Below are positions 45,535-64,000 of a DNA stretch of 64,000 bases, in pieces. Where the stretch lies: the NCBI GenBank assembly GCA_002709235.1, contig PAQI01000020.1:17079-81078 (forward strand), in the 5' to 3' direction. Below the pieces are notes generated by a model. It saw only the letters and a program-made list of their open reading frames with translations, ran no database searches and was not told where the DNA came from. The DNA comes from Hirschia sp. (GTDB lineage Bacteria > Pseudomonadota > Alphaproteobacteria > Caulobacterales > Hyphomonadaceae). The translations under genes were made by a program, and so were the position numbers. Each line of letters opens with the position of its first letter. Within the stretch, counting starts at the first letter, position 1.

Positions 45535-46764
45535 ATGGACGCTGATATCCGGTCGGACACTAAGACGCGGCGTTTCAAACGAAAGCGCGAAGCTATCCTT
45601 GGTGCGGCAGCTGCCCTTATCAATCATCAGGGCCTTCGCGAAACATCAATGCAGGATGTCGCCCGAAAGGTCGGACTTAGCGCATCCAGCGTGACATATT
45701 ATTATCGTCGCAAGGAAGATCTCGCTGCGGCATGCTTTCAGGAGACGATTAATTCTCTGCGCGAAACCGCGACCCGGGCGGCCCTCGGTACCAATGCCGA
45801 GGCACGCATTACATCTTTCCTGTCATCGGTTCTGGAGACCATCGCCCGCATAGAAAAGGGCGAGCAGGAAGCATTGGTCAATTTTCACGACCTTCGCGCC
45901 TATAACGGCCCCACCGGGGAGGATCTTCGCGAACAATATTCGGATATTTTCCGACTCGTTCGCAACCTGCTGCACACCCCGGATATGAGCCAGCTGCCGC
46001 GGGCCGAACTCAATGCGCGCGCGCACCTTTATTTTTCGATCACTCTTTGGGCGAGCAGTTGGATTCTATATTATGATACAGATGATTACGAGCGTGTCTC
46101 ATCACGTCTTGCGGACCTTATTCTCAACGGAATCTGCGTCAAACAAGGCGCATGGGCACCTGTCGCCCTGACTGGCCGGATTGACACGCCCTCGCCGGAA
46201 CACGGTTTTCCCGAATCCTATTTGCGCGCAGCAACCCGATTGTTCAACGAATTTGGCTACCAGGGCACTTCAGTCGATCAGATATCTGCCGAGCTCAACC
46301 TTACCAAGGGCTCGTTCTATCATCATATCGACACGAAAGAGGATCTGATTGCCGCGTGCTGTGAGCGTAGCTTCAGTGTTGTTCGTCGTATTCAGGACGC
46401 TGCGATGGAGCTACCCGCTGATGGGTGGACACGCCTGACGTCTGCAGCCGCATCCCTGATGCGCTATCAGTTTTCCGAGGATGGTCGTCTACTGCGCTAT
46501 ACAGCGCTGGTTTCCGTGCGCGAAGACCGGCGTATTGGCCTGCAAATGAAAATGGATCGGCTGATTGAACGATTTGCCAGCATGATCGTCGACGGTATTG
46601 CTGACGGCTCCATCCGAGCAGTCGACCCGACCATCGCTGCAAACGCAATCAATGCAGCTATCAACGCTGCTGCAGAGCTGCACTCCTGGTCTGCAGGCAT
46701 AAGTGCGGACGAAGCCGTGGACAGTTATGCCCGAATAGCCTTTGAAGGCATATTTGCCCCCTGA
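45535..46764 (+). CDS. Tandem double-TetR transcriptional regulator (copy 2)
   Basis: 409 residues built like the protein at 41458. HTH 1 (~12-65) has GAAAALINHQGLRETSMQDVA and SSVTYYYRRKEDL; HTH 2 (~227-277) has RAATRLFNEFGYQGTSVDQIS and KGSFYHHIDTKEDLI. The two proteins align along their whole length including the linker, so the fusion predates the duplication. GAGGGG eight bases before the ATG at 45535 fixes the start. It likely regulates the divergent TonB receptor. It is the last gene before the integration site. Confidence 0.88.
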   Translation: MDADIRSDTKTRRFKRKREAILGAAAALINHQGLRETSMQDVARKVGLSASSVTYYYRRKEDLAAACFQETINSLRETATRAALGTNAEARITSFLSSVLETIARIEKGEQEALVNFHDLRAYNGPTGEDLREQYSDIFRLVRNLLHTPDMSQLPRAELNARAHLYFSITLWASSWILYYDTDDYERVSSRLADLILNGICVKQGAWAPVALTGRIDTPSPEHGFPESYLRAATRLFNEFGYQGTSVDQISAELNLTKGSFYHHIDTKEDLIAACCERSFSVVRRIQDAAMELPADGWTRLTSAAASLMRYQFSEDGRLLRYTALVSVREDRRIGLQMKMDRLIERFASMIVDGIADGSIRAVDPTIAANAINAAINAAAELHSWSAGISADEAVDSYARIAFEGIFAP

Positions 46765-46895
46765 CCCAGGCATCATCAGGATCCCGAGCATCAGCCATCA
46801 GGCAAACTGAGCCCAGCCCCAGCCCGCTCATCCAGCAGGCTTCAAAAGGCTGTGCTCAAGGGAAGGCTTATGAGAAACCTCCCCCATAACGCAAT

Positions 46896-46925
46896 CTGGC
46901 CGCCCTGCTCTCACAGGACGGCCAG
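46896..46925 (-). terminator. Hairpin downstream of tRNA fragment
   Basis: CTGGCCGCCCTG and CAGGACGGCCAG form a 12-bp stem with one mismatch around a 6-base loop, 13 bases past the CCA end of the tRNA fragment on the minus strand. It is probably the original terminator of the tRNA gene, left in place after integration. Confidence 0.65.
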
Positions 46926-46938
46926 AAAACTTGTAGAT

Positions 46939-46983
46939 TGGGTGCGGGAGTAGGATTTGAACCTACGACCTTCAGGTTATGAG
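46939..46983 (-). pseudogene. 3' half of initiator-type tRNA-Met (CAT), integration site remnant
   Basis: Read on the minus strand the 45 bases are exactly: anticodon loop CTCATAA, stem CCTGA, variable AGGTC, T-arm GTAGG-TTCAAAT-CCTAC, acceptor TCCCGCA, one base, CCA. The 5' half is missing: upstream bases (GCGCT) do not pair with CCTGA. The A at the end of the acceptor strand fits an initiator tRNA with its C1-A72 mismatch. The discriminator is C where A is usual, which fits decay of a non-functional copy. The break lies at the edge of the anticodon loop, a classic crossover position for tyrosine recombinases. Confidence 0.82.
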
Positions 46984-47244
46984 AGCGCATATTCTGATTT
47001 CCCACCCGCTCTCAGCATTTCTCGGAACCTCCCATACCAATATGTTATTATTGACTTTTTTGATCCACCCCTAACGAATGCTCTCTGAGCAGTTCCTAGT
47101 GAGGTGTAACCCATGTGTAACCCAGAGCGACCTTCAGGTTGTGACATGGCTTTTGTAACCCTGGACCTTCAGGTTATCGCGTCTCCGCCTCGGGAACTGC
47201 AGCATTCATTGACCCGCCGACCTTCAGGTTTGCCTGAAGGTCGG
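46966..47244. repeat. Iterated tRNA-core motif cluster (ACCTTCAGGTT)
   Basis: The tRNA-derived sequence CGACCTTCAGGTTAT at the fragment (46966-46980) recurs as CGACCTTCAGGTT (47128-47140), GACCTTCAGGTTAT (47164-47177) and CGACCTTCAGGTTT (47218-47231). An inverted fifth copy CCTGAAGGTCGG (47233-47244) forms a perfect 12-bp palindrome with the fourth (47217-47228, loop TTTG). All lie between the attachment site and the recombinase start. Confidence 0.88.
47105..47162. repeat. TGTAACCC direct repeats
   Basis: TGTAACCCA occurs at 47105-47113 and 47116-47124, eleven bases apart (one helical turn), and TGTAACCCT at 47154-47162. Such helically phased repeats near an integrase gene resemble recombinase arm-type binding sites; this is inference. 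Confidence 0.5.
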
Positions 47245-47274
47245 CTCGAATTTGCATAGCGCAGGAGCCTGGCC

Positions 47275-48432
47275 ATGAAACTTACCAAACGTGCCGTGGA
47301 CATCATTTACCCGGAAGATCGTGATCGAGACTACTATGATGACGCGCTGAAAAGCTTTGGCGTGCGCGTGCGAAAGTCCGGCCGGAAAACCTATTTTGTC
47401 ATGTCACGCGAGCGTGGCCGAATGCGCCGGATCACCATCGGCAAGCACGGCGTTCTGACAACCGAAGAGGCCCGTAAGCAGGCGATGAAAATCCTTCACG
47501 ACCTGTCCGTCGGGATCGACCCGACAGCGGAGAAAAAGAAGATCAAGGAGACCGGCACGGTTAGGTCCCTATCGACACGCTTTTTGAAGGAATATGTCCC
47601 TGTCCATTTGAAGCCGAGCACGCAACGTGAATACCGGCGCTCCATTGAACTCTTCATCAATCCGAAGCTGGGCTCCTATCTGATCTCAGACATAACCCGA
47701 ACAGACATTGCGTCTCTCCATCACGGTCTTCGGAAGAAGCCCTATCAAGCCAATCGCACACTCGGAGTGCTCTCGGTCATGTTCAACCAGGCAGAGCTTT
47801 GGGGCATGCGCGCAGAACTCTCCAATCCCTGCCGGGGTGTGAAGAAATACAAGGAGACCAAACGCGAGCGATTTCTCTCGGTCGAGGAACTCGGCCGGCT
47901 CGGCGAGGCTCTGAAGGATGAGGACAGTTTCGCGCCATCTGCTGTCGCATGTGTGAAGCTTCTAGTCCTGACCGGCTGCCGTCTGAGTGAGATTCAGAAG
48001 CTGAAGTGGGAGCACGTAGACTTCACACGAAACATGTTGCGGCTTCCCGACTCCAAGACCGGCCGAAAGACCGTCTATCTTGGCGATGCTGCGATTACGG
48101 TTCTCAAGGCTATCCCTCGCCTTACCAAGAATGCTTATGTGATCACGGGGCAGATCGAAGGACAGTATCTCACCGACATGCAGAAACCCTGGCGACGCAT
48201 CAGGGCGGCAGCCAAACTGGATGATGTACGTCTGCACGATCTCAGACACACATTCGCATCAAGCGCGGTCTCACTGGGAGAGAACCTTCCAATGGTCGGT
48301 AAACTACTTGGCCATTCTCAACCGCAGACGACAGCACGCTACGCACATCTTGCAGACTTCCAGGCCATTAGCGCAGCCGATAAAATCTCTTCGGAGTTGG
48401 CCGGGGCGATTGGTGTCACAAATCCCGAGTGA
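47275..48432 (+). CDS. Tyrosine recombinase/integrase
   Basis: A 385-residue phage-type integrase. An N-terminal DUF4102-like arm-binding part (SFGVRVRKSGRKTYFVM) is followed by the core-binding domain and the catalytic domain with Arg in TGCRLSEIQKL, His-x-x-Arg in HDLRHTFASS, His in LLGHSQPQTTARYAHL and the Tyr nucleophile in ARYAHL. GGAG lies eleven bases before the ATG. It is the only plus-strand gene of the island and sits next to the tRNA fragment, as usual for tRNA-targeting elements. Confidence 0.95.
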   Translation: MKLTKRAVDIIYPEDRDRDYYDDALKSFGVRVRKSGRKTYFVMSRERGRMRRITIGKHGVLTTEEARKQAMKILHDLSVGIDPTAEKKKIKETGTVRSLSTRFLKEYVPVHLKPSTQREYRRSIELFINPKLGSYLISDITRTDIASLHHGLRKKPYQANRTLGVLSVMFNQAELWGMRAELSNPCRGVKKYKETKRERFLSVEELGRLGEALKDEDSFAPSAVACVKLLVLTGCRLSEIQKLKWEHVDFTRNMLRLPDSKTGRKTVYLGDAAITVLKAIPRLTKNAYVITGQIEGQYLTDMQKPWRRIRAAAKLDDVRLHDLRHTFASSAVSLGENLPMVGKLLGHSQPQTTARYAHLADFQAISAADKISSELAGAIGVTNPE

Positions 48433-48560: not shown

Positions 48561-49598
48561 TCATACCCGTTTGAGAAATTCAACGAGAAGATCATTAACT
48601 TGCTCAGGACATTCCTGCTGCACCCAATGTCCGCACTCTGGAAGGATGTGAGATCCTATATAATTGGTCGCGTAGACGCCTACATTCTGGATGGCCTCAA
48701 GTCCCCAGCCTGTTGTCACATCCTGTTCGCCGCCGATGAACATCGAAGCTGAAGTCAGCTTGATATCCTTGTGGGCAGATAACTGTGACCAACTCTTCAA
48801 AATGGAACGATAAAATGACAACGGCCCGGCGAGTCCAGACCCCTCGAATTCGTTGACGTAAAATTGAAGATCTTCTTCGCTTAACCATTTGGGAAGAGCG
48901 TCAGGAGCCTCTATTCGGTCACGCATTTTTGCGCCGCGGGGAATACACAATGGACTTTGCCGGATAACGTCAACTTGTGGCAGCTTTAGCAGATCCCTCA
49001 ATCCGGCGCCGATCATTGCTTCGGCGCAAAAGCCCCAATACACGTCGAGAAGCCACCCCCTAGCATCTGCTTCGAATTCTGTAATGGCCGGCGTGAGCGC
49101 GCCGAAATAATCCTGATAGAAATCCTGGCCCGGACCCGCAATATCCTTGTGAAGTCGGTCTGGAGGCACTTCGCCAAAGGGTGAGCCGGGCAATGCGATC
49201 AACCCTTGCCCGGAAAAAGGAATGGCCAAGCCAACTACACCATGAAAGACGTCCGGATGCAGCCAGGCACAGGTCCAAGCGACGACAGCCCCCCAATCAT
49301 GCCCAACAACGACCGCGCGTTCCTCGCCAAGTGCACTCACCACTCCCTTCACGTCGGAAACAAGCGACTTGATTTGATAATCATCATCAGCAGGAAACTT
49401 GGATGAGCGTCCGTAACCACGGTGGTCTATCGCAACCGCTCTATACCCGGCACGTGCCAGAGCGGTCAGCTGATGCCGCCAAGAATACCACGACTCGGGA
49501 AAGCCATGGAGCAGAACAACCAGTGGACCTTCGCCTTCACTCACAGCATGAATACGGGCCCCTTCAAGCTGCAACATCAAGTTTTTACGTTTGGACAT
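48561..49598 (-). CDS. Epoxide-hydrolase-type alpha/beta hydrolase
   Basis: 345 residues. HGFPESWYSWRHQL is the HGxP oxyanion motif of epoxide hydrolases, the nucleophile is Asp in VVGHDWGAVVAW, and the His is in PECGHWVQQECP. A lid tyrosine is likely in FYVNEFEGSG or LSFYRS. An Asp nucleophile (GHDWG) indicates an epoxide hydrolase or haloalkane-dehalogenase-like reaction rather than a serine esterase. The ATG at 49598 is preferred. A terminator separates it from the gene upstream, so it may have its own promoter. Confidence 0.85.
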   Translation of the reverse strand: MSKRKNLMLQLEGARIHAVSEGEGPLVVLLHGFPESWYSWRHQLTALARAGYRAVAIDHRGYGRSSKFPADDDYQIKSLVSDVKGVVSALGEERAVVVGHDWGAVVAWTCAWLHPDVFHGVVGLAIPFSGQGLIALPGSPFGEVPPDRLHKDIAGPGQDFYQDYFGALTPAITEFEADARGWLLDVYWGFCAEAMIGAGLRDLLKLPQVDVIRQSPLCIPRGAKMRDRIEAPDALPKWLSEEDLQFYVNEFEGSGLAGPLSFYRSILKSWSQLSAHKDIKLTSASMFIGGEQDVTTGWGLEAIQNVGVYATNYIGSHILPECGHWVQQECPEQVNDLLVEFLKRV

Positions 49599-49654
49599 AC
49601 TTTCAACCTTTCGCTTAAGGTTTTGTTGAGGGGATATTCTTGTCGCCAACGAAA

Positions 49655-49841: not shown

Positions 49842-50699
49842 TTACGAGTTGCCCTTCTCCATTATGAAATCGATGACCAGCTTTTCGAACCGGGCAGCAT
49901 GCTCGATTTGGGCCCAATGGCCGCATTGCCCGAAAACGTGAAGCTGGGATCGTTGAATCAATTCAGCCAGACGGTAGCCATTTTCCAGCGGCACAACCAA
50001 GTCTTCTCGCCCATGTATAACCAGCGTCTCATGAGGTATCTCTCTGAGAAGCCCTTCTTCGCTGGCAAGTTCTGTCAGCCAGCGCCCCCTGGGTGCCGGA
50101 AACATTTCTGAGAACGATTCCTGAAACCCCGGACGAATACTCGCCTGGTAGCGCAGTTCGGCAAGTTCGTCGGTGACCAGAGCCCGATCATATGCGAATA
50201 TATCAAGCAATCTGCGCATATTATCTAGCGAAGGTGTGTACCCCCACACCTGGTCCAGAGCATCGCTCAATCCAAGATCCAGTCCAGCACTCCCCATCAA
50301 AACGATACGTCGGACCCGGTCAGGGTATCGAATGGCCATCGCCAATGAGATTCCGCCTCCAAAAGAATTCCCAACAAGGTCGGTACGCTCAATTTCCAAA
50401 GCATCCATCAGCGACAACAATTGATTGAGCCACTGGTCTTTATTGTAATATTCCTTGCCTGGACGATCTGAGTAACCAAACCCCAACATGTCTGGCGCAA
50501 TTACTCTGGCAACCTTTGAAAGGCCTGGCATGGCCAACCGCCAATTCGCCCAGGCCGATACTCCCGGACCAGAGCCATGTATCAGCATGACAGGGAAGCC
50601 TGCGCCCAGATCGTGATAATTAGTACGAATACCATTCAGATTGACTACTTTCGCAACCTCTGGATTGGTTTGTTTAATGTCAGTATCAGTTTCGGACAT
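49842..50699 (-). CDS. Meta-cleavage product hydrolase (DmpD/XylF/TodF type)
   Basis: A C-C bond hydrolase of 285 residues that splits ring-fission products into 2-hydroxypenta-2,4-dienoate and an acid. HGSGPGVSAWANWRLAMPGL, PDMLGFGYSDRP and the nucleophile VGNSFGGGISLAM are hallmarks, with Asp in VIHGREDLVVPL and His in QCGHWAQIEHA. The HGSGPGVSAWANW form is that of hydrolases acting on monocyclic alkyl substrates rather than biphenyl-specific BphD (HGGGPG). It follows the extradiol dioxygenase gene, matching pathway order. Confidence 0.9.
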   Translation of the reverse strand: MSETDTDIKQTNPEVAKVVNLNGIRTNYHDLGAGFPVMLIHGSGPGVSAWANWRLAMPGLSKVARVIAPDMLGFGYSDRPGKEYYNKDQWLNQLLSLMDALEIERTDLVGNSFGGGISLAMAIRYPDRVRRIVLMGSAGLDLGLSDALDQVWGYTPSLDNMRRLLDIFAYDRALVTDELAELRYQASIRPGFQESFSEMFPAPRGRWLTELASEEGLLREIPHETLVIHGREDLVVPLENGYRLAELIQRSQLHVFGQCGHWAQIEHAARFEKLVIDFIMEKGNS

Positions 50700-50768: not shown

Positions 50769-51650
50769 CTAAGCGGCCCCCATCCCCATAAACTTGTGCC
50801 CCCACATGCTGATGCTATCGTATCGAACCACCGACCAATCGGCCTCGATCGTCCGCGCTCCCCAGCCATATTCTACGGCAAACCCTGAAGGAGTTGCTCC
50901 GTAAAAGGAATACATGTGATCATTGGTGTGGCGCCCCATTGTCATCACGACCTGATTTTGATCGATAACCCGATCATATGCCCTGCCAACATCGTCAAAC
51001 GAGGACACTTCCAGCATGAAATGGTGCAGCCGTTTCGGGGCCGGCGCCTGTATCAAGGCCAGCGTATGATGCCGCCTGTTGCAATGCAGAAAATTGACTT
51101 GAAGCTTCACCTCTGGGTTCATCTGCCAGTCGATGATGTCGGAAAGTTCCATACCGAGCCCCCGGATATAGAAATCCAGAGACTGCTCAAGATCGTCAAC
51201 ACTCAGGACGTAATGGCCCAGTCCTTGATCCTCGGTAATGAAACCGGACACCCCGGCAGGAGAAACAAACGGCACCTCATAGAGTTCGCTTGCCCCGTAA
51301 TAGATCTCGATCGTAACACCTGACGGGTCCTTACACTTCACGAAGTCGATGACGGCACGTTCCGCCAGCTCCTCCGGATTGGCCCGCTGGATTGGGACAC
51401 CGCACTGCTCAAGCGTTTGAGCGACACGTTCCATGTCGGCTTTGTTCTCAACTTCAAATCCGGCGTAGAGGATGTCATCCTTGGGACTCGGATGGACTCC
51501 GATCCGCCATCCGCGCGAGTCCAGCCGTAACAACAAAGCATCGCGCTTCGATCCCGCATCCATCAAGCCCAGTGTCTTCGTCGCGTAGGACCGCCATGCT
51601 TCAATATCCGAAGCGCCGAATCCGAGGTATCCAAGTTTCTTTACAGCCAT
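50769..51650 (-). CDS. bphC: Extradiol catechol dioxygenase, BphC type
   Basis: A two-domain type I extradiol dioxygenase of 293 residues. Fe(II) ligands are in QGLGHYVLSV (His), KRLHHFMLEVSS (His) and GFAVEYGWGART (Glu). RHTNDHMYSFY and the ending SMWGHKFMG are typical of 2,3-dihydroxybiphenyl and 3-substituted catechol enzymes. It opens the ring beside the two hydroxyls to give the substrate of the adjacent hydrolase. GGGAG precedes the ATG. Confidence 0.93.
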   Translation of the reverse strand: MAVKKLGYLGFGASDIEAWRSYATKTLGLMDAGSKRDALLLRLDSRGWRIGVHPSPKDDILYAGFEVENKADMERVAQTLEQCGVPIQRANPEELAERAVIDFVKCKDPSGVTIEIYYGASELYEVPFVSPAGVSGFITEDQGLGHYVLSVDDLEQSLDFYIRGLGMELSDIIDWQMNPEVKLQVNFLHCNRRHHTLALIQAPAPKRLHHFMLEVSSFDDVGRAYDRVIDQNQVVMTMGRHTNDHMYSFYGATPSGFAVEYGWGARTIEADWSVVRYDSISMWGHKFMGMGAA

Positions 51651-51687: not shown

Positions 51688-52923
51688 TCAGCATTTTACG
51701 TCCGCACGGGATGCAGCCTTGAAAACATCCCGCATGCCTGTCGTCCCATCCGCGAGCATGTTCGAATCGACCTCAAATTCCCGCTCAATGAGCTTCGTCA
51801 CAAAAGCAAAATCCTTCGCCCTATCGATGGAAATCGCAGCCTGAATTACGCCATTATGCAGGCGCAGATACATGTTCGCGTCCCCCTCTGGGCTCTTTCG
51901 CTCAACGATTGCACCCGGCCCTTCGACGTCTCCCATCATCTGAATGTGAGAACCTGCAATCTCCGTCCAGGATATCGGAATTTGGGGCACCGGCTTCGCC
52001 CGCCCCACTATAGAGCATGCGGCGCATATGGCCTGGCTCTGAGAGTTCAGATAGGTCTCAAGGCTGCGCTGCCCTCCATCGCGCAAAGGCCAGCTGGCAG
52101 CATCGCCAATTGCGAACACGGCCGGATTGTCCGTTCGCCCGCAGGCGTCAACCAGAACCCCTCTATTGCAAGCAAGCCCAGCATCCCGGGCAAGCTCGAC
52201 CGAAGGCTCCGCGCCAACGCAGACTATGGCGACATCACCAGTAAACCGGCGCCCCGATGAGCAACGGACATCCCGCACGCCAGCATCTGTGGAGATGCTC
52301 GTGACAGACACGCCCAAATGAATTTCCACGCCAAGTCCGGTTAGCCGATCACGGCACCATGCCCCCATCTTCCTGCCCAGAACCCGCAGCAGTAGTTCGT
52401 CTGACGACTCCAGGAGGACAACTTCGCACCCCATGGTTCTGACAGTTGTCGCCAGCTCGCAACCAATAAGACCACCGCCAATGATGATCACTCGCCGACC
52501 CGCACCAAGTTCCTCTCGCAAGGCGGCACTGTCTGCCAACGTCCGCAAAACATGAACGGTGCCCGGTGGAGCAGATCTTGCAGCCGCCAAACTCCTTGCA
52601 CGCGCCCCTACGGCTAGGACAAGCTTGTCAAAGGTCACGCTCCGCTGCCGGTCAAGAACAAGGGACCTTGCATGAAAATCGACCGAAATGACGCGCTCAC
52701 CAAGCCGCATCTCCACATCGAATTCCTGTTCCCAACCCGGCTTGGCCAGAGGCGGTGGAGGCCCCCCCGTCTTGAGGGTAGATTTTGACAGGGAAGGCCG
52801 GTCATAAGGCTCTTGCGCCTCATCGCCGAATAGAATGATGCTCCCCGAAAATCCGCTTTCTCTCAAAGAGCGACAGGCCGTAACACCCGCTATCCCCGCT
52901 CCAACAATTGCGACGGTCTGCAT
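51688..52923 (-). CDS. bphA4: Dioxygenase ferredoxin reductase (BphA4 type)
   Basis: A 411-residue FAD/NADH oxidoreductase passing electrons to the Rieske ferredoxin. FAD motif VAIVGAGIAGVTACRSL, DRPSLSK, NAD motif IIIGGGLIGCELAT and the second FAD contact VFAIGDAASW are present. The ATG at 52923 overlaps the ferredoxin stop as TGATG, showing translational coupling. It sits directly upstream of the extradiol dioxygenase gene. Confidence 0.93.
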   Translation of the reverse strand: MQTVAIVGAGIAGVTACRSLRESGFSGSIILFGDEAQEPYDRPSLSKSTLKTGGPPPPLAKPGWEQEFDVEMRLGERVISVDFHARSLVLDRQRSVTFDKLVLAVGARARSLAAARSAPPGTVHVLRTLADSAALREELGAGRRVIIIGGGLIGCELATTVRTMGCEVVLLESSDELLLRVLGRKMGAWCRDRLTGLGVEIHLGVSVTSISTDAGVRDVRCSSGRRFTGDVAIVCVGAEPSVELARDAGLACNRGVLVDACGRTDNPAVFAIGDAASWPLRDGGQRSLETYLNSQSQAICAACSIVGRAKPVPQIPISWTEIAGSHIQMMGDVEGPGAIVERKSPEGDANMYLRLHNGVIQAAISIDRAKDFAFVTKLIEREFEVDSNMLADGTTGMRDVFKAASRADVKC

Positions 52924-53249
52924 CACTCACCAACCTTTCCCGCCTCGTAGTCAACGAAGATTTCACCTCCACGAACTTCTACGGGATAAATTGTCAGTGG
53001 ATCACAGGCTGGTGGCGCCTTTACCTTACCAGTTCGTACACAGAATTTTCCCCAATGGAGGGTGCACTCGATAACGCCATCTTCAAGAAAGCCGTCTGCG
53101 AGTGACCAGTCCCCATGTGTGCATCGATCCTGAGTCGCGAATATCTGCCCACCTACATTATAGACGGCTATCGCTTCCTCGAATGTCTCGATCTGCAGCG
53201 CCTCTCCTTCGGACACATCCTCTAGATTGCAGACTTTCTCGAATGCCAT
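52923..53249 (-). CDS. bphA3: Rieske ferredoxin of ring-hydroxylating dioxygenase (BphA3 type)
   Basis: A soluble 108-residue [2Fe-2S] electron carrier. Rieske ligands are in RCTHGDWSLADG (Cys, His) and ECTLHWGKFC (Cys, His). The tail GKVKAPPACDPLTIYPV is typical of biphenyl/toluene-type ferredoxins. It lies between the beta subunit and reductase genes in the classical order. Confidence 0.95.
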   Translation of the reverse strand: MAFEKVCNLEDVSEGEALQIETFEEAIAVYNVGGQIFATQDRCTHGDWSLADGFLEDGVIECTLHWGKFCVRTGKVKAPPACDPLTIYPVEVRGGEIFVDYEAGKVGE

Positions 53250-53258: not shown

Positions 53259-53825
53259 TCAAAAAAACAGGCTGAGATTGTTCGACAGAATAGTACTCTG
53301 ATCGATATGAATCGTACGTTTTGCAATCTTGAACCCGAGTTCATTCTCGGCCCGACGCAAAACATCCAGTCTCTCCCCCGCAAATATGTCGACCTGGCGT
53401 TCCAGGCGGTTGCGGTACACGATAAAGGATGAGACGACGCTCAGCTCTGAGGCAGATAACTCTTCCTCTATCAGAACATTTCCGACAATATGCCGAGTCC
53501 TTGACGCAGGATTTTCAGACCACCCCACATCCGACATGAGCTTTCTCTGACGTCCACGCATCATGGTGAGGTCATCGTCGAAATGCGCGAACTCGTTATC
53601 TTTGGTGTACTCTAGCTTCTTTTGCTCGCGACGGGTCCTATTCGTCCGTATAGGCATGAAGTAGCGAATATCCTCATCGAGCAAGTCGAACCAATCGTTA
53701 AACTCATGTCTATCAAGAAGAAGGGCTTCTCGATAATAAAACTGCTCTACCTCATGTTGCAGCGAGAGCGCTTCAAGGCTTATGTCTCCCTGCCGGGTTG
53801 CCGCTCGCATCTTTTCGTCAATCAT
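53259..53825 (-). CDS. bphA2: Ring-hydroxylating dioxygenase beta subunit (BphA2 type)
   Basis: A 188-residue structural subunit, NTF2-like fold: [21 protein letters not shown], then [20 protein letters not shown] and [12 protein letters not shown]. It forms the alpha3beta3 oxygenase with the large subunit at 53959. GGAGGAAGCG precedes the ATG. The gap to the alpha stop is 133 bases, wider than the other gaps in the cluster. Confidence 0.94.
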
Positions 53826-53958: not shown

Positions 53959-55341
<1,383 letters not shown>

Positions 55342-55391: not shown

Positions 55392-56144
55392 TTACTCCGC
55401 ACCCGGACCTTTCACTAACAGGCCACTTTTTTCCATGAACTCGAATGAGGCCCAAATATGAGTCGAAAGCGCTTCAACGGCGCCCTCCGCATCACGTCCC
55501 ATGGCCAGCTCGTAGATTTGCCGATGTTCCTCATGAACGGTAATGCCGGGATTAGCTCGCTTAGATGTCGTAACGCGCCGATATCGCTCTGCTTGCTTAT
55601 AAAGGACACCCCGAAAGCGTTGGACCCATCGGGAGTCTGCGGCAGAAACTAAGGCATCGTGGAATTCCTGATTTCTCAGTTCCCAGAAATCAAAATTGGT
55701 GACAGGATCCGCTTGCAGCCCTTTCTCTGCGAGGGATAGCTGATGGTATGCTTGGACAACCCGCCCCTCCCAGTCGTCCTTGCCAAGCAGAATACTATCC
55801 CGCAACGAGGAGGACTCCAGCAGAACCCGGGCCTTTGTAAGATCCTGAAAATCGCCAATCGACATTGGCGCTACGCGGAAGCCCCGTTGAGCTTGCGTAA
55901 GGACCAAACCGTCGGATACGAGCAAGGATAGCGACTCTCGGACCGTCCCTACGCTGACGCTGTAATTGTCACTCAAAGACTGCAGTTTCAGCTTCTCACC
56001 AGGTGAGTATTTGCCATGAATTATGTCGGAGCTCAGCAGACCATAAGTCGACTCAATCAAGCTGCCGGCGCCATCGGCATCCACCGCAGCAGAACTACGA
56101 GAGAATTCTTGTTCAGCCATTTGATTGAATGTTTCCTCGACCAT
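55392..56144 (-). CDS. GntR-family regulator with FCD domain
   Basis: A 250-residue regulator. The winged HTH contains GKYSPGEKLKLQSLSDNYSV and GTVRESLSLLVSDGLV; the C-terminal FCD helical domain has EFHDALVSAADS and HEEHRQIYELAMG with the metal-ligand histidines. It lies just upstream of the dioxygenase alpha gene on the same strand, making it the likely controller of the cluster. The start is uncertain: 56144 has a weak ribosome-binding site, and an ATG at 56120 with GAGGAA upstream is an alternative. Confidence 0.88.
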   Translation of the reverse strand: MVEETFNQMAEQEFSRSSAAVDADGAGSLIESTYGLLSSDIIHGKYSPGEKLKLQSLSDNYSVSVGTVRESLSLLVSDGLVLTQAQRGFRVAPMSIGDFQDLTKARVLLESSSLRDSILLGKDDWEGRVVQAYHQLSLAEKGLQADPVTNFDFWELRNQEFHDALVSAADSRWVQRFRGVLYKQAERYRRVTTSKRANPGITVHEEHRQIYELAMGRDAEGAVEALSTHIWASFEFMEKSGLLVKGPGAE

Positions 56145-56456: not shown

Positions 56457-57440
56457 CTAGTTAACTTCCAACACAATGTTGCCCGCCACCTGCCCGCTTT
56501 CGACCAACTGATGTGCCTTGACAATGTCGTCTAACTTCAACTTCAAAGCGATATTGTGGATCATCTTCTCGCTCTGGAGCATCGAGTACAGAAGTTTCTG
56601 TGCTTCGCGCCGAGCTGTGTCCGAAAGCTTGTAAGCGATAAAGAAGCAGTATGTGATGTTTCTCGCAATGGACGCAGAAAATGGTACGACCACCTCCTTA
56701 CTGCTGCTTCCGTAAGCGAGCACCACCCCTCCCTCGCACAAGAGAGAGACATCAGTTGCAACATTTTTTGCGACATCAACTTCAATTATGCGATCCACAC
56801 CTCGACCGCCGGTCACTTCATTAATCGCCGCAACCAGATCATCCGTGCGATAATTTAAGACAATATCCGCACCCGCTTCTTCTGCGAGCTTCGCCTTCTC
56901 CGGCGCGCTGACAGTCGCAATGACTGTCTGCGCGCCTGCGTATTTGGCTGCCTGAATGGCATAATGACCGACTGCTCCAGCCCCTCCTGCGACCAAAACT
57001 GTTTGCCCGGAAACGCCACCATTCGAGACCACCGTATGACATGCCGTCATAGCCGGAATCCCAAGACAGGCACCCACTTCCAATGGGCAATTATCAGGCA
57101 AGGGTTGAGCTTGTGCTTGCGGAAGAATCACAAACTCAGCAGCCGTCCCAAGGCTTCGCCCCCATGCAGCATTCCACACCCAGACCCTATCGCCCGGTTT
57201 GAAATTACTTACCCCGGTTCCAACCGACTCGATGTATCCAGACCCGTCACTATGCGGAACTCTTGGAAAAGGTATCGCCGACGGAATATGTCCGCTTCTG
57301 GTCTTAACATCTGACGGGTTCACACCGGTCCACTGCATCCGGACGCATATCTCTCCCGGGCCAGGTTCCGGCAGGTGAACTTCCTGAATTTGAAATACTT
57401 CTTCGGCTGGACCCGTCTTGGAGTAAGCATAAGCCTTCAT
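56457..57440 (-). CDS. Quinone-oxidoreductase-like MDR family protein
   Basis: A 327-residue medium-chain dehydrogenase/reductase without the structural zinc cysteines: AYSKTGPAEEVFQIQEVHLPEP at the start, NPSDVKTRSG, the Rossmann motif VAGGAGAVGHYAIQAAKYAG, and GGRGVDRIIEVD. Such zeta-crystallin-like enzymes reduce quinones or enones with NADPH. ATG 57440 follows GAGGTG. In this cluster it could reduce an enone or enoyl-CoA, but this is guesswork. Confidence 0.88.
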   Translation of the reverse strand: MKAYAYSKTGPAEEVFQIQEVHLPEPGPGEICVRMQWTGVNPSDVKTRSGHIPSAIPFPRVPHSDGSGYIESVGTGVSNFKPGDRVWVWNAAWGRSLGTAAEFVILPQAQAQPLPDNCPLEVGACLGIPAMTACHTVVSNGGVSGQTVLVAGGAGAVGHYAIQAAKYAGAQTVIATVSAPEKAKLAEEAGADIVLNYRTDDLVAAINEVTGGRGVDRIIEVDVAKNVATDVSLLCEGGVVLAYGSSSKEVVVPFSASIARNITYCFFIAYKLSDTARREAQKLLYSMLQSEKMIHNIALKLKLDDIVKAHQLVESGQVAGNIVLEVN

Positions 57441-57509
57441 AATTGCACCTCTATTCAGTTCCATATTGATCACTATTCAAACTAAAACGATCCCAGATTG
57501 TCCGAATGT

Positions 57510-59405
57510 TCATTCACTATTCTTCAGCGTAATCTCGATATCCTGAAGTACGCCCGGGTTATCAATGGTCGCGGGCATGCTATATTCCTTGCCATCGGCT
57601 AGAGACTTAAGCGTTCTGCGCAAAATCTTTCCGGAGCGAGTTTTGGGCAACTGAGCCACAACAATGGCTTTGCGAAATGCTGTGACTGCGCCTATCTCTG
57701 CACGGACTAAATTTATTACCTCCGAAACAATTTCGCCTTCGGAACGCTGCACACCATCATTGAGGACAAGCATCCCGAATGGGACTTCCCCTTTGAGTTC
57801 GTCTGCTAAGCCGATAATTGCGCACTCTGCGACATCAGGATGGCTCGCAACGACCTGCTCAATAGCACCGGTCGAAAGCCTGTGCCCGGCGACATTGATA
57901 ATATCATCGACACGACTCATGATGTGAAGATATCCCTGATCGTCGATGTATCCGGCATCACCCGTCTTGTAGTATCCCGGAAATTCCGAAAAATAAGAGT
58001 CTACGAAGCCTTCCTCATTGTGCCACAAAGTAACCAGACACCCAGGTGGCAGGGGCAACTTCACCACAACTGATCCCTGAAGCCCCTTGGCCAGTTCAGA
58101 CCCACCATCATTGACAATCCGTACGTCGAAGCCAGGCATGGGGACACAACTCGATCCATAGACAATTGGTAATTGTTCAAGACCGAGCGGATTTGCGGCA
58201 ATGGGCCAACCCGTTTCCGTCTGCCACCAATGGTCAATTACTGGCACGTTTAGAATTTTTTCAGCCCACTGAATTGTATCGGGATCGGCCCTCTCACCGG
58301 CAAGAAACAGCTGGTTGAACACACTCAAATCGTACTCTGCCAATAACGTGCCCTGCGGATCAGCCTTTTTTATCGCGCGTATCGCGGTAGGAGCCGCAAA
58401 CAGCGTACTGACACCGTGCTCCTCGATGACCCTCCAGAAGGTTCCGGCATCCGGTGTTCCAACGGGTTTTCCTTCAAAAAGAAGGGTCGTGCTTCCATTC
58501 AGAAGCGGACCGTAGACAATATACGAATGGCCCACGACCCAGCCCACATCCGATGCCGCCCAGAACACATCTGTTTGCTTGACATTGTATATGTTGGTCA
58601 TCGACCATTTGAGCGCCACCATATACCCGCCATGGTCGCGCACGATGCCTTTTGGCACACCGGTGGTTCCCGAAGTGTGGAGGATGTAGAGCGGATGGTT
58701 CGAACCGACCCACTCGCACGAAGTATGCCCGGGTTCCAACTTCGCTTTTTGCACCAGCGAATACCATTCGTGTTCTGATTGCCCTGCTAATTCACACTCA
58801 TGAGAAGGTCTCTGCAGTATTACTGTATGATCGGGAGAAAAAAGGCCGAGCCTGATCGCCTCGTCGAGGAGAGGCTTGTATTCGACGATTCGACCAGGCT
58901 CGAGTCCACAGGATGCCGACAAAATCACTTTTGGTTTGGCGTCCTGAATCCGGGTTGCCAACTCCTTTGCCGCAAACCCCCCAAATACCACGACATGAAT
59001 TGCACCGATACGCGCTGTGGCGAGCATGGCGATTACCGCCTCGGGCACCATGGGCATGTAGATGAGAACCCTGTCACCCTTCTCCACGCCGAGATCCCTG
59101 AGAACTACAGCCATGGCGCAGACCTCTTCAAGCAACTCAGAATAAGTGTAGCGCGCCTGCGCCCCAGTCATTGCGCTGTCATAGACAAGGGCAACGTAGT
59201 CTCCTCTGCCTTCTGCGATATGACGGTCGAGCGCATTCCAGCAAATATTGCATTCAGCGCCAGCAAACCATCGCGTGGATCCATTGCCGACATCGCTTCG
59301 TACGCTGTCGAATGGCCGGTGCCAGTCCAGATCGCCCGCCGCCTCTTCCCAGAAGTTATCCGGGTCAGATTGCCAATGTTCGTAAACTTCTTTGTACCTA
59401 CTCAT
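57510..59405 (-). CDS. Propionate/acetate--CoA ligase (PrpE-like)
   Basis: A 631-residue adenylate-forming ligase of the AcsA/PrpE group. NICWNALDRHIAEGRGD, YILHTSGTTGVPKGIVRDHGGY, DHWWQTETGWPIAANP, TGDAGYIDDQGYLHIMSRVDD and the lysine region PKTRSGKILRRTLK are diagnostic. It makes acyl-CoA from a short acid with ATP. PrpE is more likely than Acs from the sequence pattern. Its place in the aromatic cluster suggests it activates the short acid released by the meta-cleavage hydrolase. Confidence 0.92.
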   Translation of the reverse strand: MSRYKEVYEHWQSDPDNFWEEAAGDLDWHRPFDSVRSDVGNGSTRWFAGAECNICWNALDRHIAEGRGDYVALVYDSAMTGAQARYTYSELLEEVCAMAVVLRDLGVEKGDRVLIYMPMVPEAVIAMLATARIGAIHVVVFGGFAAKELATRIQDAKPKVILSASCGLEPGRIVEYKPLLDEAIRLGLFSPDHTVILQRPSHECELAGQSEHEWYSLVQKAKLEPGHTSCEWVGSNHPLYILHTSGTTGVPKGIVRDHGGYMVALKWSMTNIYNVKQTDVFWAASDVGWVVGHSYIVYGPLLNGSTTLLFEGKPVGTPDAGTFWRVIEEHGVSTLFAAPTAIRAIKKADPQGTLLAEYDLSVFNQLFLAGERADPDTIQWAEKILNVPVIDHWWQTETGWPIAANPLGLEQLPIVYGSSCVPMPGFDVRIVNDGGSELAKGLQGSVVVKLPLPPGCLVTLWHNEEGFVDSYFSEFPGYYKTGDAGYIDDQGYLHIMSRVDDIINVAGHRLSTGAIEQVVASHPDVAECAIIGLADELKGEVPFGMLVLNDGVQRSEGEIVSEVINLVRAEIGAVTAFRKAIVVAQLPKTRSGKILRRTLKSLADGKEYSMPATIDNPGVLQDIEITLKNSE

Positions 59406-59576: not shown

Positions 59577-60992
59577 CTAGCGTTTGTCTCTAAGCTTATC
59601 GATATCGAATAGGGCATTATCCATTTCATCAACACCTTCCCAGTCCGAAGTCTGGCTCATTATCGTATGACGTTTCGAGATGACATTCGGAATGATAACA
59701 GTGCGCCACATGGCTTTGCCCGTGGTTGGCTGCCACCAACGTGAATCGCCCCATGCCCGCCACAGATTCCCGCGACGGTCGAACATCTCCATCCACTGGG
59801 TATAGTAGAGTTCCTTGTCTACCCAGACGCGCTTCTTGGAGTACTGGTAGCTGTTTGTCAGGTCATCGATATCGTAGACCCACACAGGCCGCAGCTCCAT
59901 GTCCACGATCCCTGTCAGCCCGCAGCGAGCATCATCGGAACGGTAAGGGTCATAGGCTGCACCAACCTCGGGCGCGGCAAGCACGAAGCCTTCCTTGACC
60001 ATCGTATACTTGAACTTTCGCTTGTCGGTCTTAGCCCACTGGCTGCGCCACTCATCCCAGGTCAGCTCAAGAGACGGCGCGATCGGATCCTGACCGTTGG
60101 TCCCCGTAAGGGTGCGTGTTCGGCGCAAGGTCGGGATGAAGAGCTTAAAATTGTCGTCTTTGTCGGCGTCAGCAAAGCGCCCCCGCACACCTGCCAGTCC
60201 GCGGACATCTCGAGGAGATGTCAGAAGAAGAGCCCCAGCCTCTGCCACACCTTCAAACCCAGGGACATTCCCGAGAGGCGCCTTGCCTACCCTGCCTGCC
60301 ATCTTTCGCCACCACATGTTTGCGGTGTAAGTGCGCTCGACCTTATTCTTCGCGCTGCAGCCGGTCATGACAACCGGGTTGAACCAAAGATCCTCCGTGC
60401 CCACACCGTGGGAATTGAACAGCCAGTTCAATTCGTCGCCATTTTTAGGATTTAGGAAGGGAAGGCCAGCCTTCGTCAGAAGCCCATTTTGTCCGTTCTT
60501 GTCGATCAGCTCTCCCTTTTCGTTGATCGAGAATGGATCAGGACCCAAATTCTTTGTGGCGTCGAGTAAAGGCTTCTGCATGTAGTAGTGGGTCGTCGGT
60601 ACGATCCTGATGCCTTCAATCCCCATCCATTCACTGCTCAGGCGGTCCATCCAGAACTGCGGCAGATAATCCGCCAACCATGGCATGGACGCCAGGTTAT
60701 CCTTCGTGATGATCAGGCCCGGTTTCAGATCATCAGGAAGATCAGCCGCTTCGATCAGTGACGTCGCAGTATAGCCGCGATAGTCGCTCCACGCCTTTTC
60801 CAGGGCTCTCGTTTCATCATTGTCGAGCATATCTGCCCAGGCCTGATGTTCGGGCAGCCCCGTTTCAGCGGCAAACTCCTTCCACTTGGCGATATAGTCT
60901 TCTTGAGCCTGGGCGGCAGGGGTGCTTGCCACCGCCAAGGCGACAAACCCAGCCGCTCCGGCTAGTATATTCTTCAGTTTCGCACTGCGCAT
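59577..60992 (-). CDS. DUF1329 periplasmic protein (LolA-like fold)
   Basis: A 471-residue exported protein with signal AGAAGFVALAVASTPAAQA. Features include RIVPTTHYYMQKPLLDAT, WGDSRWWQPTTGKAMWR and WRKMAGRVGKAPLG. DUF1329 proteins occur with DUF1302 barrels and RND transporters in aromatic and sterol degraders, where transport or sensing of hydrophobic compounds is suspected. GGAGAG sits four to five bases before ATG 60992. Structural similarity to LolA/VioE-type folds is by family. Confidence 0.9.
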   Translation of the reverse strand: MRSAKLKNILAGAAGFVALAVASTPAAQAQEDYIAKWKEFAAETGLPEHQAWADMLDNDETRALEKAWSDYRGYTATSLIEAADLPDDLKPGLIITKDNLASMPWLADYLPQFWMDRLSSEWMGIEGIRIVPTTHYYMQKPLLDATKNLGPDPFSINEKGELIDKNGQNGLLTKAGLPFLNPKNGDELNWLFNSHGVGTEDLWFNPVVMTGCSAKNKVERTYTANMWWRKMAGRVGKAPLGNVPGFEGVAEAGALLLTSPRDVRGLAGVRGRFADADKDDNFKLFIPTLRRTRTLTGTNGQDPIAPSLELTWDEWRSQWAKTDKRKFKYTMVKEGFVLAAPEVGAAYDPYRSDDARCGLTGIVDMELRPVWVYDIDDLTNSYQYSKKRVWVDKELYYTQWMEMFDRRGNLWRAWGDSRWWQPTTGKAMWRTVIIPNVISKRHTIMSQTSDWEGVDEMDNALFDIDKLRDKR

Positions 60993-61047
60993 TTCACTCT
61001 CCATTTTGTTTGTTCAGACTGGCGTGGCCATACCTTCATCCTGACTT

Positions 61048-62973
61048 TCAGAATTGGTATGTCAGTGAAAACTCCACGTAGTCTGAGTTTTTATAGAGGC
61101 CCAAAAGGCCCTGCTCTTCCTTCCCGCCAAAATAGCCAAGTTCAATTCTCGGCTTCCAGCTTCCTCCGCCTACGGCAAAGTCGATCCTCTGCCTAAAGGC
61201 GACGCCGCCTTTATCCATGTCCCAGATTGCCAAGCCATCCAGGATCACCTTGTCGTTGAACAGACCTTTAGAATATGTCTGTGTAAGGAATTCTTGATGT
61301 TCTTCCACATTTGTAAGCGCATACGGCGCCTGAAAGAGCAGGCCGTCAGCGTCTTCGGTATAGATCTCGAAGAACTGGGTGGTCATGAAAATCGAGCTGC
61401 GCTGAGACTCCCAGCCAGGAACCCAGAGATTGAAGTCGACTCCGATCAACAGAGACACCTGATCCCTTTCCGCAACAGTGTCCTCTCGGGTTGTAATCAG
61501 AGCCGGTGTACCGACGATGACTTGCCCCGGGATGAACGGATCATCGATCGTACCTTTGTTGAAAGGCTTATCGAACTCATAGGCCGCCTCAAGACGCAGA
61601 ACCGGAGAGACACCTTTTCCTCCAAGACGAATTTCAGTCATGTCACGGGTAAAGGAAAAGCCTACAGTCTTTTGCCGGTAAGTATAATCCATGTCGAAAT
61701 CAGCAGTTATGGAACACGGGACCCCACCGCCAGCGGGATCCAGAATGTCCAAGCAGCCAGACGGAATAAGCGGAAAGTCACCCGGTGCCGCGGTTCCCGC
61801 AGCAAGAGACTGAATAAAATCCACATATTGCCCAGGCCCATTCATGGCCCCGATCGTCGTCGCAAGATCAATCGGAACATTCACGACACCTATTGCATTC
61901 TCGTCTCCGAGAAAAGTGCCGATGTGAACTGTGGCACCCGTGTTGACTAATATGGGAAGATCTTGGAAGCCATAAAATCCATTGATCGTCGCCTGCCCTC
62001 CTAGGGTGTCGAACTTCAGTCGAAGTCCGACCTCCGAATCCTCCCACGCCTCGGTCTCCTTGTCTGTCAGCTTCGCTCCCAGCAAGGGCATCCCGAAGCC
62101 CGATTGTCCCTCGACCATGCGAGGGAATGGCAGGCCAAAAGGCCCCCCTGAAGTGCTCGAATTTGGGGTTGGATTGTTCACGACAAACTCGCTATGCCGC
62201 ACAATGGGAGTGTAGACGACTTCCAACGAGGAGTTTTTCATGCCCAATCCAGTGAAGGGTGCGCCTATACCAAGCGCATTCACATCAAGTGCCAGAGCCG
62301 CACTCCATTGCGAAATCCTGAGATCCTCGGTATCGGTAAAAATGGACCTCTGCCGCAGGTCCTGGGGATTGAGGATATCCAGCAGCCGGAGGCCGTCCGC
62401 TTGGCCCCACCCACGCTGAAATTTTCCAAGTTTCAGATTGGCCCGCCCTTCGGAATCCGCGAGAGCAATTGAAAATTCCCGGATGATGTCTTCTTCGAAA
62501 TCATCGAGAAATCGACTCTCCTTGCCATCATTGCCGAACGGCTGCGGCATTACGAGAGAGCCGTTGTCAGTAAGCTGGAAATCGAAGCGATCTCGAAATG
62601 GAGGCCCTTGGGAAAAATCCGGCGTGCCCGGTCCAACAGCCTCGCCGTCATCCAGATCGTAATACCAGTCCCCTCTCAGCCAAAAATCCGACACAACTGT
62701 TACATTGTTGTTCGGTGTCCATTCTGCCTGAATTTGCGCAACGAACTGCGAAGGACCAATGCCAACCTTGTCGTCGCCATAGCGATCAAAATAGACACCG
62801 GTTCCCTGTGTGAGTCTTCCTCCGACCCAGACATTATCAGGAAGCCCGAGAGCATCCGAAAGCGACTGAGCACTTGCTGTTGACGACAAGCCGATCAGAG
62901 CAAGCAACGCGGTCGCTCCAGGTATCCAATGAGACACACTCATGCATTTATACTTTTGTGCACTTTTAGTCAT
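61048..62973 (-). CDS. DUF1302 outer-membrane protein
   Basis: A 641-residue exported beta-barrel-like protein; the signal peptide ends near ALLALIGLSSTASA. It contains WVGGRLTQGTGVYFDRYG, and many aromatic-residue-ending strands, with the C-terminus SDYVEFSLTYQF typical of barrels. DUF1302 proteins pair with DUF1329 and MMPL/RND transporters. GGGAG precedes the ATG at 62973; a start 15 bases earlier overlaps the RND stop. Confidence 0.9.
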   Translation of the reverse strand: MTKSAQKYKCMSVSHWIPGATALLALIGLSSTASAQSLSDALGLPDNVWVGGRLTQGTGVYFDRYGDDKVGIGPSQFVAQIQAEWTPNNNVTVVSDFWLRGDWYYDLDDGEAVGPGTPDFSQGPPFRDRFDFQLTDNGSLVMPQPFGNDGKESRFLDDFEEDIIREFSIALADSEGRANLKLGKFQRGWGQADGLRLLDILNPQDLRQRSIFTDTEDLRISQWSAALALDVNALGIGAPFTGLGMKNSSLEVVYTPIVRHSEFVVNNPTPNSSTSGGPFGLPFPRMVEGQSGFGMPLLGAKLTDKETEAWEDSEVGLRLKFDTLGGQATINGFYGFQDLPILVNTGATVHIGTFLGDENAIGVVNVPIDLATTIGAMNGPGQYVDFIQSLAAGTAAPGDFPLIPSGCLDILDPAGGGVPCSITADFDMDYTYRQKTVGFSFTRDMTEIRLGGKGVSPVLRLEAAYEFDKPFNKGTIDDPFIPGQVIVGTPALITTREDTVAERDQVSLLIGVDFNLWVPGWESQRSSIFMTTQFFEIYTEDADGLLFQAPYALTNVEEHQEFLTQTYSKGLFNDKVILDGLAIWDMDKGGVAFRQRIDFAVGGGSWKPRIELGYFGGKEEQGLLGLYKNSDYVEFSLTYQF

Positions 62974-62984
62974 CCTATTCTCCC

Positions 62985-64000
62985 TCATATTGATTGGAAT
63001 TTTGTGCGGTTTCCTACCGGATTTTCATCCTCAGTAGATTGAAATTCTGGTTCGAATTCCGACCGGAAAAATGGAAACCCACGTGGCTTCAGAATGCCAA
63101 TCAAAGCAGGAACTACCGTCAGCGCCCCAACCATGTTGAAGAGAAGAATGATCGCCAGAAGCACGCCCATTTCGGCCTGAAACCTTATTGGTGACAGGAA
63201 GTACCAAGGCAACAGGGGCAGAATCATCGTCAATGCTGTTACAATGACAGCGACACCGGACGTATTGAATGCTCGCTTTGCGGCTTCTTTGAAATCAAAC
63301 CCGTGGAGCATCTCGTCCCGAATCCGATCAGCGAGGTAGATGCTGTAATCCACCCCCCTTCCAAGGCCCAAAGCAGCCAGCGGCAGCGTATTGAGGTTCA
63401 TGCCTACATCCATAAGCGTCATGACGCTCATGGTAATATAATGGGATGTCGTCAGCACAAGGATGATCGTTGCCGCAATGGCCGGAGACCGGTAGAGCCA
63501 GAGCAGATTGAACGCAATCACGATTATGATCGCAACCAGGAGCAGATTCTCCTTGTGTTCAACCTCATCATTGGCGGCCTTGATGAGACCGACTTGGCCA
63601 CCGGCATATTGGACTCGTGGCTCATCTTCCTCGAAAGCGTATTCATCTGAAAACTGGTCGCCCGCCGCCTGCAGGGCATTCACCGTGTCCGCACTGTGTT
63701 CACTCGTATAGATCGCGAGCTTGCCGATGCTCCATTCGGAATTCGTGTATGCGGCAAAGTCTCCCGGCTCGCCGCCGGAACGAAACATGTAGATGTTCAG
63801 ACCGATCTCGTCCTCGGTATCCGGAACGATCTGATAGGAGGGGTCGCCCTCCCAGAGCACCATGTTGATATTCTTGACAATTGGGACCAGGCTTTGCGCC
63901 CGGGTTGCGACAGGGACACGCTCGTAGACGTAGCGATCGAAAGCCTCGATCTGATGATATACTCTCGGATCCAGCATGATTTCCCCGTCTCCGGAAAAGT
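62985..64000 (-). CDS. RND/MMPL-family transporter, C-terminal part (cut by window edge)
   Basis: The frame runs to the right edge without a start; upstream residues FSGDGEI are in frame before MLDPRVYHQIEAF. The visible ~338 residues include the last periplasmic loop and five or six membrane helices (LLLVAIIIVIAFNLLWLY, ATIILVLTTSHYITMSV, and GLGRGVDYSIYLADRIRDE, the MMPL-typical 'G.GVDY.i' motif). Such transporters move lipids, sterols or aromatics across the envelope. It heads the visible part of the DUF1302-DUF1329 operon. Confidence 0.92.
   Translation of the reverse strand, partial: FSGDGEIMLDPRVYHQIEAFDRYVYERVPVATRAQSLVPIVKNINMVLWEGDPSYQIVPDTEDEIGLNIYMFRSGGEPGDFAAYTNSEWSIGKLAIYTSEHSADTVNALQAAGDQFSDEYAFEEDEPRVQYAGGQVGLIKAANDEVEHKENLLLVAIIIVIAFNLLWLYRSPAIAATIILVLTTSHYITMSVMTLMDVGMNLNTLPLAALGLGRGVDYSIYLADRIRDEMLHGFDFKEAAKRAFNTSGVAVIVTALTMILPLLPWYFLSPIRFQAEMGVLLAIILLFNMVGALTVVPALIGILKPRGFPFFRSEFEPEFQSTEDENPVGNRTKFQSI

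Follow-up and report, generated by a model that had tools for sequence, protein, structure and literature searches.

Integrase end of a putative ICE in an initiator tRNA gene of Hirschia, next to a probable relic of a serine-recombinase element

What does half of a tRNA gene beside a recombinase gene mark, and what lies on its outer side? The question is raised by a 64-kb stretch of a Hirschia sp. genome (the window; positions 17079-81078 of contig C20 of genome G000), in which a 3' half of the initiator tRNA gene, tRNA-fMet, stands before a gene for a tyrosine recombinase (Table 1). The first-pass annotation had placed the left end of an island here, with the tRNA half still followed by its terminator hairpin and the intact tRNA to be expected at the other end, beyond the window. 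According to our analysis, the site is very probably the integrase end of an ICE (E1) in tRNA-fMet, and abuts the relic of a second element type found at the same tRNA gene, which carries a large serine recombinase (E2). Positions without a contig or genome label refer to the window; C32 and C18 are other contigs of G000. Two relatives are used throughout: G062, a closed one-contig genome from another genus of the window's family, and G001, a congener of the window genome.

Table 1. Features at the junction and in the adjoining part of E1 (window coordinates)
Feature	Position	Strand	Evidence
3'-end relic of large serine recombinase gene, RNLAALLSQDGQKTCRLGAGVGFEPTTFRL-stop, TAA just before; includes hairpin	46890..46982	+	
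Displaced tRNA-fMet 3' half, anticodon loop to 3' end (junction with older DNA)	46938..46983	-	46/46 identity to C32:738-783
Direct repeats TGTAACCCA, 11 bp apart, probable arm sites	47104..47124	+	Also at both element ends in G062 and G001
tRNA anticodon-arm motif CGACCTTCAGG(TT), three direct copies and one inverted, in the junction-to-integrase interval	47128..47245	+	
Tyrosine integrase of the ICE, 385 aa	47275..48432	+	Pfam; 96% identical in G062, 69% in G001
Alpha/beta hydrolase	48561..49649	-	Pfam
Alpha/beta hydrolase	49842..50699	-	Pfam Abhydrolase_1
Extradiol dioxygenase, BphC type	50769..51650	-	PDB 1han (2,3-dihydroxybiphenyl dioxygenase), E 2.8e-102; Pfam BphC_D1
Ferredoxin reductase	51688..52926	-	Pfam Pyr_redox_2, Reductase_C
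Rieske ferredoxin	52923..53249	-	Pfam Rieske
Ring-hydroxylating dioxygenase beta subunit	53259..53825	-	Pfam Ring_hydroxyl_B
Ring-hydroxylating dioxygenase alpha subunit, biphenyl/benzene/cumene type	53959..55335	-	PDB 1uli, E 2.1e-232; 3en1, E 1e-226
GntR-family regulator	55392..56144	-	Pfam GntR, FCD
Zinc-type alcohol dehydrogenase family protein	56457..57473	-	Pfam
Acyl-CoA synthetase family protein	57510..59405	-	Pfam AMP-binding, ACAS_N
DUF1329 protein, common to the G062 ICE	59577..61004	-	Pfam; 75% identical in G062
Protein with no Pfam match, beside DUF1329, common to the G062 ICE	61048..62988	-	73% identical in G062
MMPL-type transporter, runs past the window, common to the G062 ICE	62985..63998	-	Pfam MMPL; 73% identical in G062

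The tRNA half, the integrase and the conjugation genes

The fragment in the window begins at the anticodon loop (CTCATAACC...), and 45 of the 46 bases that it shares with C32 lie inside the tRNA (E 3.4e-17). A search of the whole assembly returned these two copies of the 3' half only. The annotated exact 45-base 3' half beside a tyrosine recombinase is borne out by this match and by the open integrase reading frame. On C32 the half belongs to an intact tRNA-Met(cat) (C32:706-782), which lies about 200 bases 3' of a 5S rRNA gene (C32:383-497); in the 64-kb window itself ARAGORN detected no complete tRNA. We regard the C32 tRNA as the probable initiator on the basis of its position at the end of an rRNA operon and its orthology to tRNAs of relatives whose first base is C. 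In the rRNA operons of G001, G062 and G022, Ile and Ala tRNAs precede the tRNA-Met. A C1-A72 mismatch is typical of bacterial initiator tRNAs; the first base seems to be T, pairing with A72, in the genus of the window and C in sister genera.

The integrase contains the Pfam domains Phage_integrase, Arm-DNA-bind_3 and SAM-like. Phage_integrase covers the catalytic domain, where R236, H321, R324, H347 and Y356 are present and kept in G001; these would be the catalytic residues of a tyrosine integrase. Between junction and integrase lie direct repeats of TGTAACCCA, an inverted pair of which is found behind the intact tRNA (C32 851-870). These repeats look like arm sites of the integrase. The three direct copies of the anticodon-arm motif CGACCTTCAGG recur at equal spacing in G062 and are missing in G001. 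We considered whether such copies are a general trait of these integrases and rejected it: in a scan of 25 loci, three direct copies occurred in the window and G062 only, with one direct copy at L054 and one reverse near-match each at L091 and L059. At three sites in another genome, G002, the tRNA-fMet is immediately preceded by a 21-base copy of its anticodon arm.

One base pair of the T-arm may allow the crossover to be narrowed down. In G062 this pair is C-G in the intact tRNA versus T-A at the same position in the fragment. If the intact tRNA carries the half brought in by the element, the crossover would fall within CTCATAACCTGAAGGTCG, after identity begins and before the T-arm. On the same condition, the working initiator tRNA of G062 would have an element-derived T-arm.

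Rightward from C32:783, the intact tRNA is followed by genes for an AAA-type ATPase, a protein with no Pfam match and a DUF736 protein, and then by conjugation genes in the order trbI, trbG/cagX, trbF/virB8, trbL, a gene for a protein in the TrbJ position, trbE, trbC, a gene for an ATPase in the trbB position and traG/virD4. The coupling protein TraG/VirD4 was recognized by its T4SS-DNA_transf domain (E 3.2e-105). It is this trb-type conjugation locus behind the intact tRNA that marks the island as a putative ICE. The contig ends inside traG, which is cut, and C32 and C20 are unjoined in the assembly. The mating-pair formation (T4SS) genes present on C32 are on the same contig as the integrase end in both G062 and G001; on C20, no T4SS protein was among the matches to the element proteins of these two genomes. 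Between the gene for the trbB-position ATPase and traG, at C32 13614-17062, PADLOC detected an OloA/OloB defence pair (E 2e-73 and 4e-186), presumably of the Olokun type.

A relaxase gene adjoins traG in G062 (DUF3363 type). With the G001 relaxase as single query, no relaxase of E1 itself was found in the G000 assembly; the one match lay on C18, beside another traG. The relaxase of E1 may therefore lie in an assembly gap, be absent, or be too different from the query. The C18 locus (17156-21571) holds a second traG, 68% identical, and the only DUF3363-type relaxase found in the assembly; a distant match to a tyrosine integrase (43088-43894) and a tRNA (44164-44247) lie about 22 kb away.

On the other side of the junction, the genes at 1568-14432, among them ones with GlyS-beta and glutamate-cysteine-ligase domains, appear to belong to the core genome. 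The gene nearest to the junction encodes a double TetR regulator, which was detected in 15 of the 105 family genomes (E ≤ 1e-40, G000 included) and, at the same threshold, in neither of two congeners. Proteins with two tandem TetR N-terminal domains are encoded at 45346-46764 and 41413-42702, with a TonB receptor gene and fatty-acid-type genes nearby. The GC content was 0.557 left of the junction, 0.534 in the C20 part of E1 and 0.590 in its C32 part. E1 does not stand out evenly in base composition, which was counted against the ICE reading.

E1 and its cargo in related genomes

The two ends of E1 lie on one contig in G062, 60.3 kb apart, with the intact tRNA-fMet at 2541194-2541270 and the 3' half at 2601547-2601591. 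C32 703-13168 (12.5 kb) matches G062 2541191-2553652 at 89.7% identity, C32 17195-19376 (2.2 kb) matches 2563025-2565206 at 95.4%, and the integrase end in the window matches 2600097-2601642 at 90.7%. Since both G000 ends match G062, they correspond to the two ends of the one 60.3-kb element there, and C32 and C20 probably hold parts of a single element. The distance between intact tRNA (697245-697321) and fragment (769796-769848) is 72.5 kb in G001, where nine proteins of the T4SS region are 57-80% identical and conserved in order. The terminator hairpin behind this fragment recurs behind the unoccupied copy of the tRNA (2332629), which supports a displacement of the old 3' half together with its own flank. 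This tRNA is present as a single intact copy in both G062 and G022.

Displaced fragment and restored tRNA at opposite ends, with the integrase inside, are contiguous in G062 and G001 and on separate contigs in G000. The intact tRNA that the first-pass annotation had predicted beyond the window was accordingly found, on a contig whose link to the window we infer and in contiguous form in the two relatives. The two results that it had named as speaking against an island, the lack of a full tRNA-Met at a right boundary and the same fragment in relatives without the integrase and cargo, did not turn up.

In the family, 11 of 105 genomes, G000 included, encode a close relative of the integrase (E ≤ 1e-100). 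The fMet 3' half adjoins the integrase gene at 9 of these loci; none was detected in G065 or G071, though in G071 a 30-base partial match lies next to the gene. Among GTDB genomes, 32 integrase relatives were detected. The 3' half preceded the integrase by 169-241 bases in 16 of the 30 loci tested (L079 and L082, where a contig end cuts the integrase start, are excluded). By the pattern used, the fragment was absent from the remaining 14, which was counted against the ICE reading; eight of these are Rhodobacteraceae-type loci with integrases 45-47% identical, and one, L064, has a piece of the fMet 3' half running into the contig end. A broken copy of the E1 integrase lies beside an fMet 3' half in G002 (C1, locus L049, 3950-5334), where an E1-type element seems to have decayed. 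Intact tRNA-fMet and 3' half are only about 5-16 kb apart in G022 (C1 2025227-2034111), G055, G075 and G076. The integrase at the G022 locus is 54% identical, and the short intervals suggest small elements at the same tRNA.

Behind the integrase, the part of E1 in the window carries genes for aromatic degradation of the biphenyl type (Table 1); the hydrolase at 49842..50699 we take to be perhaps of the meta-cleavage type. The block from the DUF1329 protein to the MMPL transporter is shared with the G062 ICE at 73-75% identity, and the next gene beyond matches more weakly (38%). At the same place, the G062 element encodes a protein resembling styrene monooxygenase, together with proteins of kinds known from phenylacetate breakdown, probably a styrene/phenylacetate-type pathway. 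The cargo of G001, judged from sequence starts only, looks like metal-efflux genes. E1 may thus be regarded as a travelling backbone with exchangeable cargo: biphenyl-type in the window, styrene/phenylacetate-type in G062 and, from the sequence starts, metal-efflux-like in G001.

The outer flank and the serine-recombinase elements

The hairpin on the outer side of the tRNA half (GGCCGTCCTG, about 46896-46937) is a real inverted repeat, with no T-run behind it. The same bases are part of a reading frame that continues through the antisense of the tRNA 3' half. In G062, the open reading frame beyond the displaced fragment encodes a 528-aa large serine recombinase with Resolvase, Recombinase and zinc-ribbon domains; it ends in GDLAALISQDGQTTLMMGAGVGFEPTTFRL-stop, the last part being antisense of the tRNA 3' half. 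A tblastn search with this protein gave a match over window positions 46893-46979 (E 3.6e-9), partly in tRNA antisense. Since the tRNA portion alone produces a match, the flank was also scored separately. Without the tRNA it scored 44 against the serine element of G062 and 49 against that of G020, and neither value was reached by any of 2000 random contig stretches. Against the flanks of the unoccupied sites in G047, G075 and G001 the score was 14, which 905, 807 and 562 of 2000 random stretches reached. The hairpin was therefore rejected as the tRNA's own terminator; the annotated terminator lacks a T-run and finds its match in the 3'-terminal part of a serine recombinase gene.

The relic extends only about 17 codons beyond the tRNA, which was counted against the reading as stacked elements. 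At E ≤ 1e-20, no serine recombinase of the E2 family was found among the contigs of G000. Only the 3'-terminal relic of the gene is left in the window, which we accordingly treat as carrying a relic and not as a member of the family. A search of C20 for the core of the E2 far end, with at most one mismatch in 12, found nothing besides the fragment itself.

Complete E2 elements are present in relatives. The recombinase had matches at E ≤ 1e-20 in 25 of the 105 family genomes, 12 of them 73-100% identical; among these 12, the gene of G017 is broken by a stop. Ten of the 12 have an intact tRNA-Met at the 3' end of the recombinase gene. G062 has only the 3' half of the tRNA at this position, since E1 is inserted in the tRNA, and the contig of G052 breaks off here. 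At nine loci of the group with 97-100% identity the T-arm varies by host and the DNA after CCC is nearly identical, indicating that E2 begins at the tip of the tRNA. The far end was sought in four genomes and located in two, G062 (2667011) and G009 (1261085). In both, the element closes with the same 45 bases, after which come CTCCCGCACCCA and a host-type terminator. CTCCCGCACCCA, a 12-base copy of the tRNA tip, is the core at both ends of E2 in these genomes. The element measures 65.4 kb in G062, compared with 63.7 kb in G009, and has its own trb genes, so that a serine ICE is seen with both of its ends in two relatives. The far end was not found in the 99 kb read in G053, and the contig of G013 ends first. 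The native flank of G047 was tried as a marker for the far end in G062 and discarded: the matching gene starts at 2674439 and is preceded by an unrelated gene. A hairpin scan placed the end just before 2667028, from where it was fixed at 2667011.

Joining the two E2 ends in silico gives the circular form, in which the recombinase is predicted to have 535 aa and another tail (...MMGAGGRTQQKSKLVIPFISEG), versus 528 aa in the integrated form, whose tail (...MMGAGVGFEPTTFRL) is antisense to the host tRNA. Similar arrangements are found outside the family in plasmid records, with four examples among the 15 matches listed, of 407 records with any match. The Novosphingobium resinovorum plasmid pSA1 and a plasmid of Loktanella salsilacus have an intact tRNA-Met into which the recombinase tail reads, and in a Bradyrhizobium barranii plasmid the tail lies on a partial tRNA. 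In a replicon of Paracoccus denitrificans, a tyrosine integrase (57%), the 3' half and a serine recombinase (44%) stand in a row, as in G062. More distant recombinase relatives were seen next to tRNA genes as well: a 42% relative in G058 (contig C73, L159) has a tRNA-Gln just past its 3' end, and 40% relatives at loci L162 and L172 have a tRNA-Met past theirs. The habit of integrating at a tRNA tip may extend beyond fMet.

Origin of the junction and known systems

In the proposed history, an E2-type element would have entered the tRNA first, E1 would have followed into the anticodon arm, and E2 would then have decayed to its last codons. The E1 integrase would recombine an attP carrying a tRNA-fMet 3' half with the anticodon-arm region of the chromosomal tRNA-fMet. 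Thereby the tRNA would be made whole at the far end, from the 5' half of the host and the 3' half of the element with its terminator, and the old 3' half would be pushed to the window junction. The outer side of this displaced half would be joined to what remains of E2, which uses the last 12 bases of the tRNA gene. A full E2 would accordingly have been present at the window site at one time. In G062, the stacked state of E1 and E2 is intact.

Other histories were weighed. The junction might be a simple island boundary, at which the displaced half lies beside the chromosomal terminator of the tRNA and a second element was never involved. The strong inverted repeat directly after the tRNA end would fit this, as would the native-like terminators behind the displaced halves of G001 and G022. 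However, the hairpin has no T-run, the reading frame of the recombinase is kept into the tRNA, and the flank scored 44-49 against serine-element ends and at chance level (14) against the unoccupied sites of G047, G075 and G001, so that we consider a simple boundary quite improbable. It also appears unlikely that E1 is a decayed, immobile relic. With a single query no relaxase of its own was found in the assembly, but the integrase is open and 96% identical to the copy in another genus, and the trb and traG proteins are 86-98% identical to those of G062. To judge from these genes, E1 may still be able to excise and transfer.

A further possibility is that the conjugation locus on C32 belongs to an element whose integrase end is unassembled, and the integrase in the window to another, possibly non-conjugative island. 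C32 and C20 are indeed unjoined, a second, related traG with a relaxase is present on C18, and the intervals of about 5-16 kb between tRNA and half in G022, G055, G075 and G076 are too short for such an ICE. Yet the assembly contains a single displaced 3' half, the TGTAACCCA repeats are found at both ends, and both ends match one contiguous 60.3-kb element of G062 at about 90-95% DNA identity. Two separate elements are therefore very improbable, and the integrase end of one ICE, abutting an E2 relic, is the reading that we prefer.

We lean towards the view that the initiator tRNA, which occurs once in closed genomes of the family, is a shared dock. Tyrosine ICEs would use its anticodon arm and serine ICEs its last 12 bases, so that the two could stack with no harm to the tRNA. 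The serine attP would lie inside the recombinase's own gene, whose tail would be swapped on integration. If this is true, the tail swap could itself switch the activity of the serine recombinase; E2 offers a pair of recombinase and site for testing whether the integration-swapped tail controls direction. Island finders restricted to tyrosine integrases or to long tRNA fragments would miss E2-like elements or misplace their ends.

In itself, a tyrosine ICE located in tRNA-fMet is nothing out of the ordinary. The initiator tRNA had been called an unusual target, which is overstated in view of the close integrase relatives in 11 of 105 family genomes and of published sites: PMC9973854 describes met-tRNA genes as ICE sites in Mesorhizobium (ICEMsp CA8 and the IntM sites of tripartite ICEs), and PMC11476347 links phage-related sequences to fMet tRNA genes in Sinorhizobium. 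The novelty lies in a family of serine-recombinase ICEs at a tRNA gene, found in several genera. In 2014 the Islander work (PMC4383910) stated that no serine integrases were known at tRNA genes, and a partial literature search found no published report of a serine recombinase at such a gene.

Like E1, the Mesorhizobium elements of PMC9973854 are trb-type ICEs adjoining a met-tRNA gene in an alphaproteobacterium. E1 is not tripartite as far as seen, and carries aromatic degradation in place of symbiosis genes. With the Islander class A islands, those with an anticodon-centred attP (PMC4383910), E1 shares the 3' fragment, the restored tRNA opposite, the onboard integrase and a crossover in the anticodon region; unlike them, it lies directly against what is left of an element with a serine recombinase at that gene. 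A parallel to E2 is offered by the integration-dependent repressors of mycobacterial prophages (PMC8092301), where integration likewise alters the C-terminus of an element gene. In E2, by contrast, the altered gene is that of the serine recombinase itself, and the new tail is the antisense of a host tRNA.
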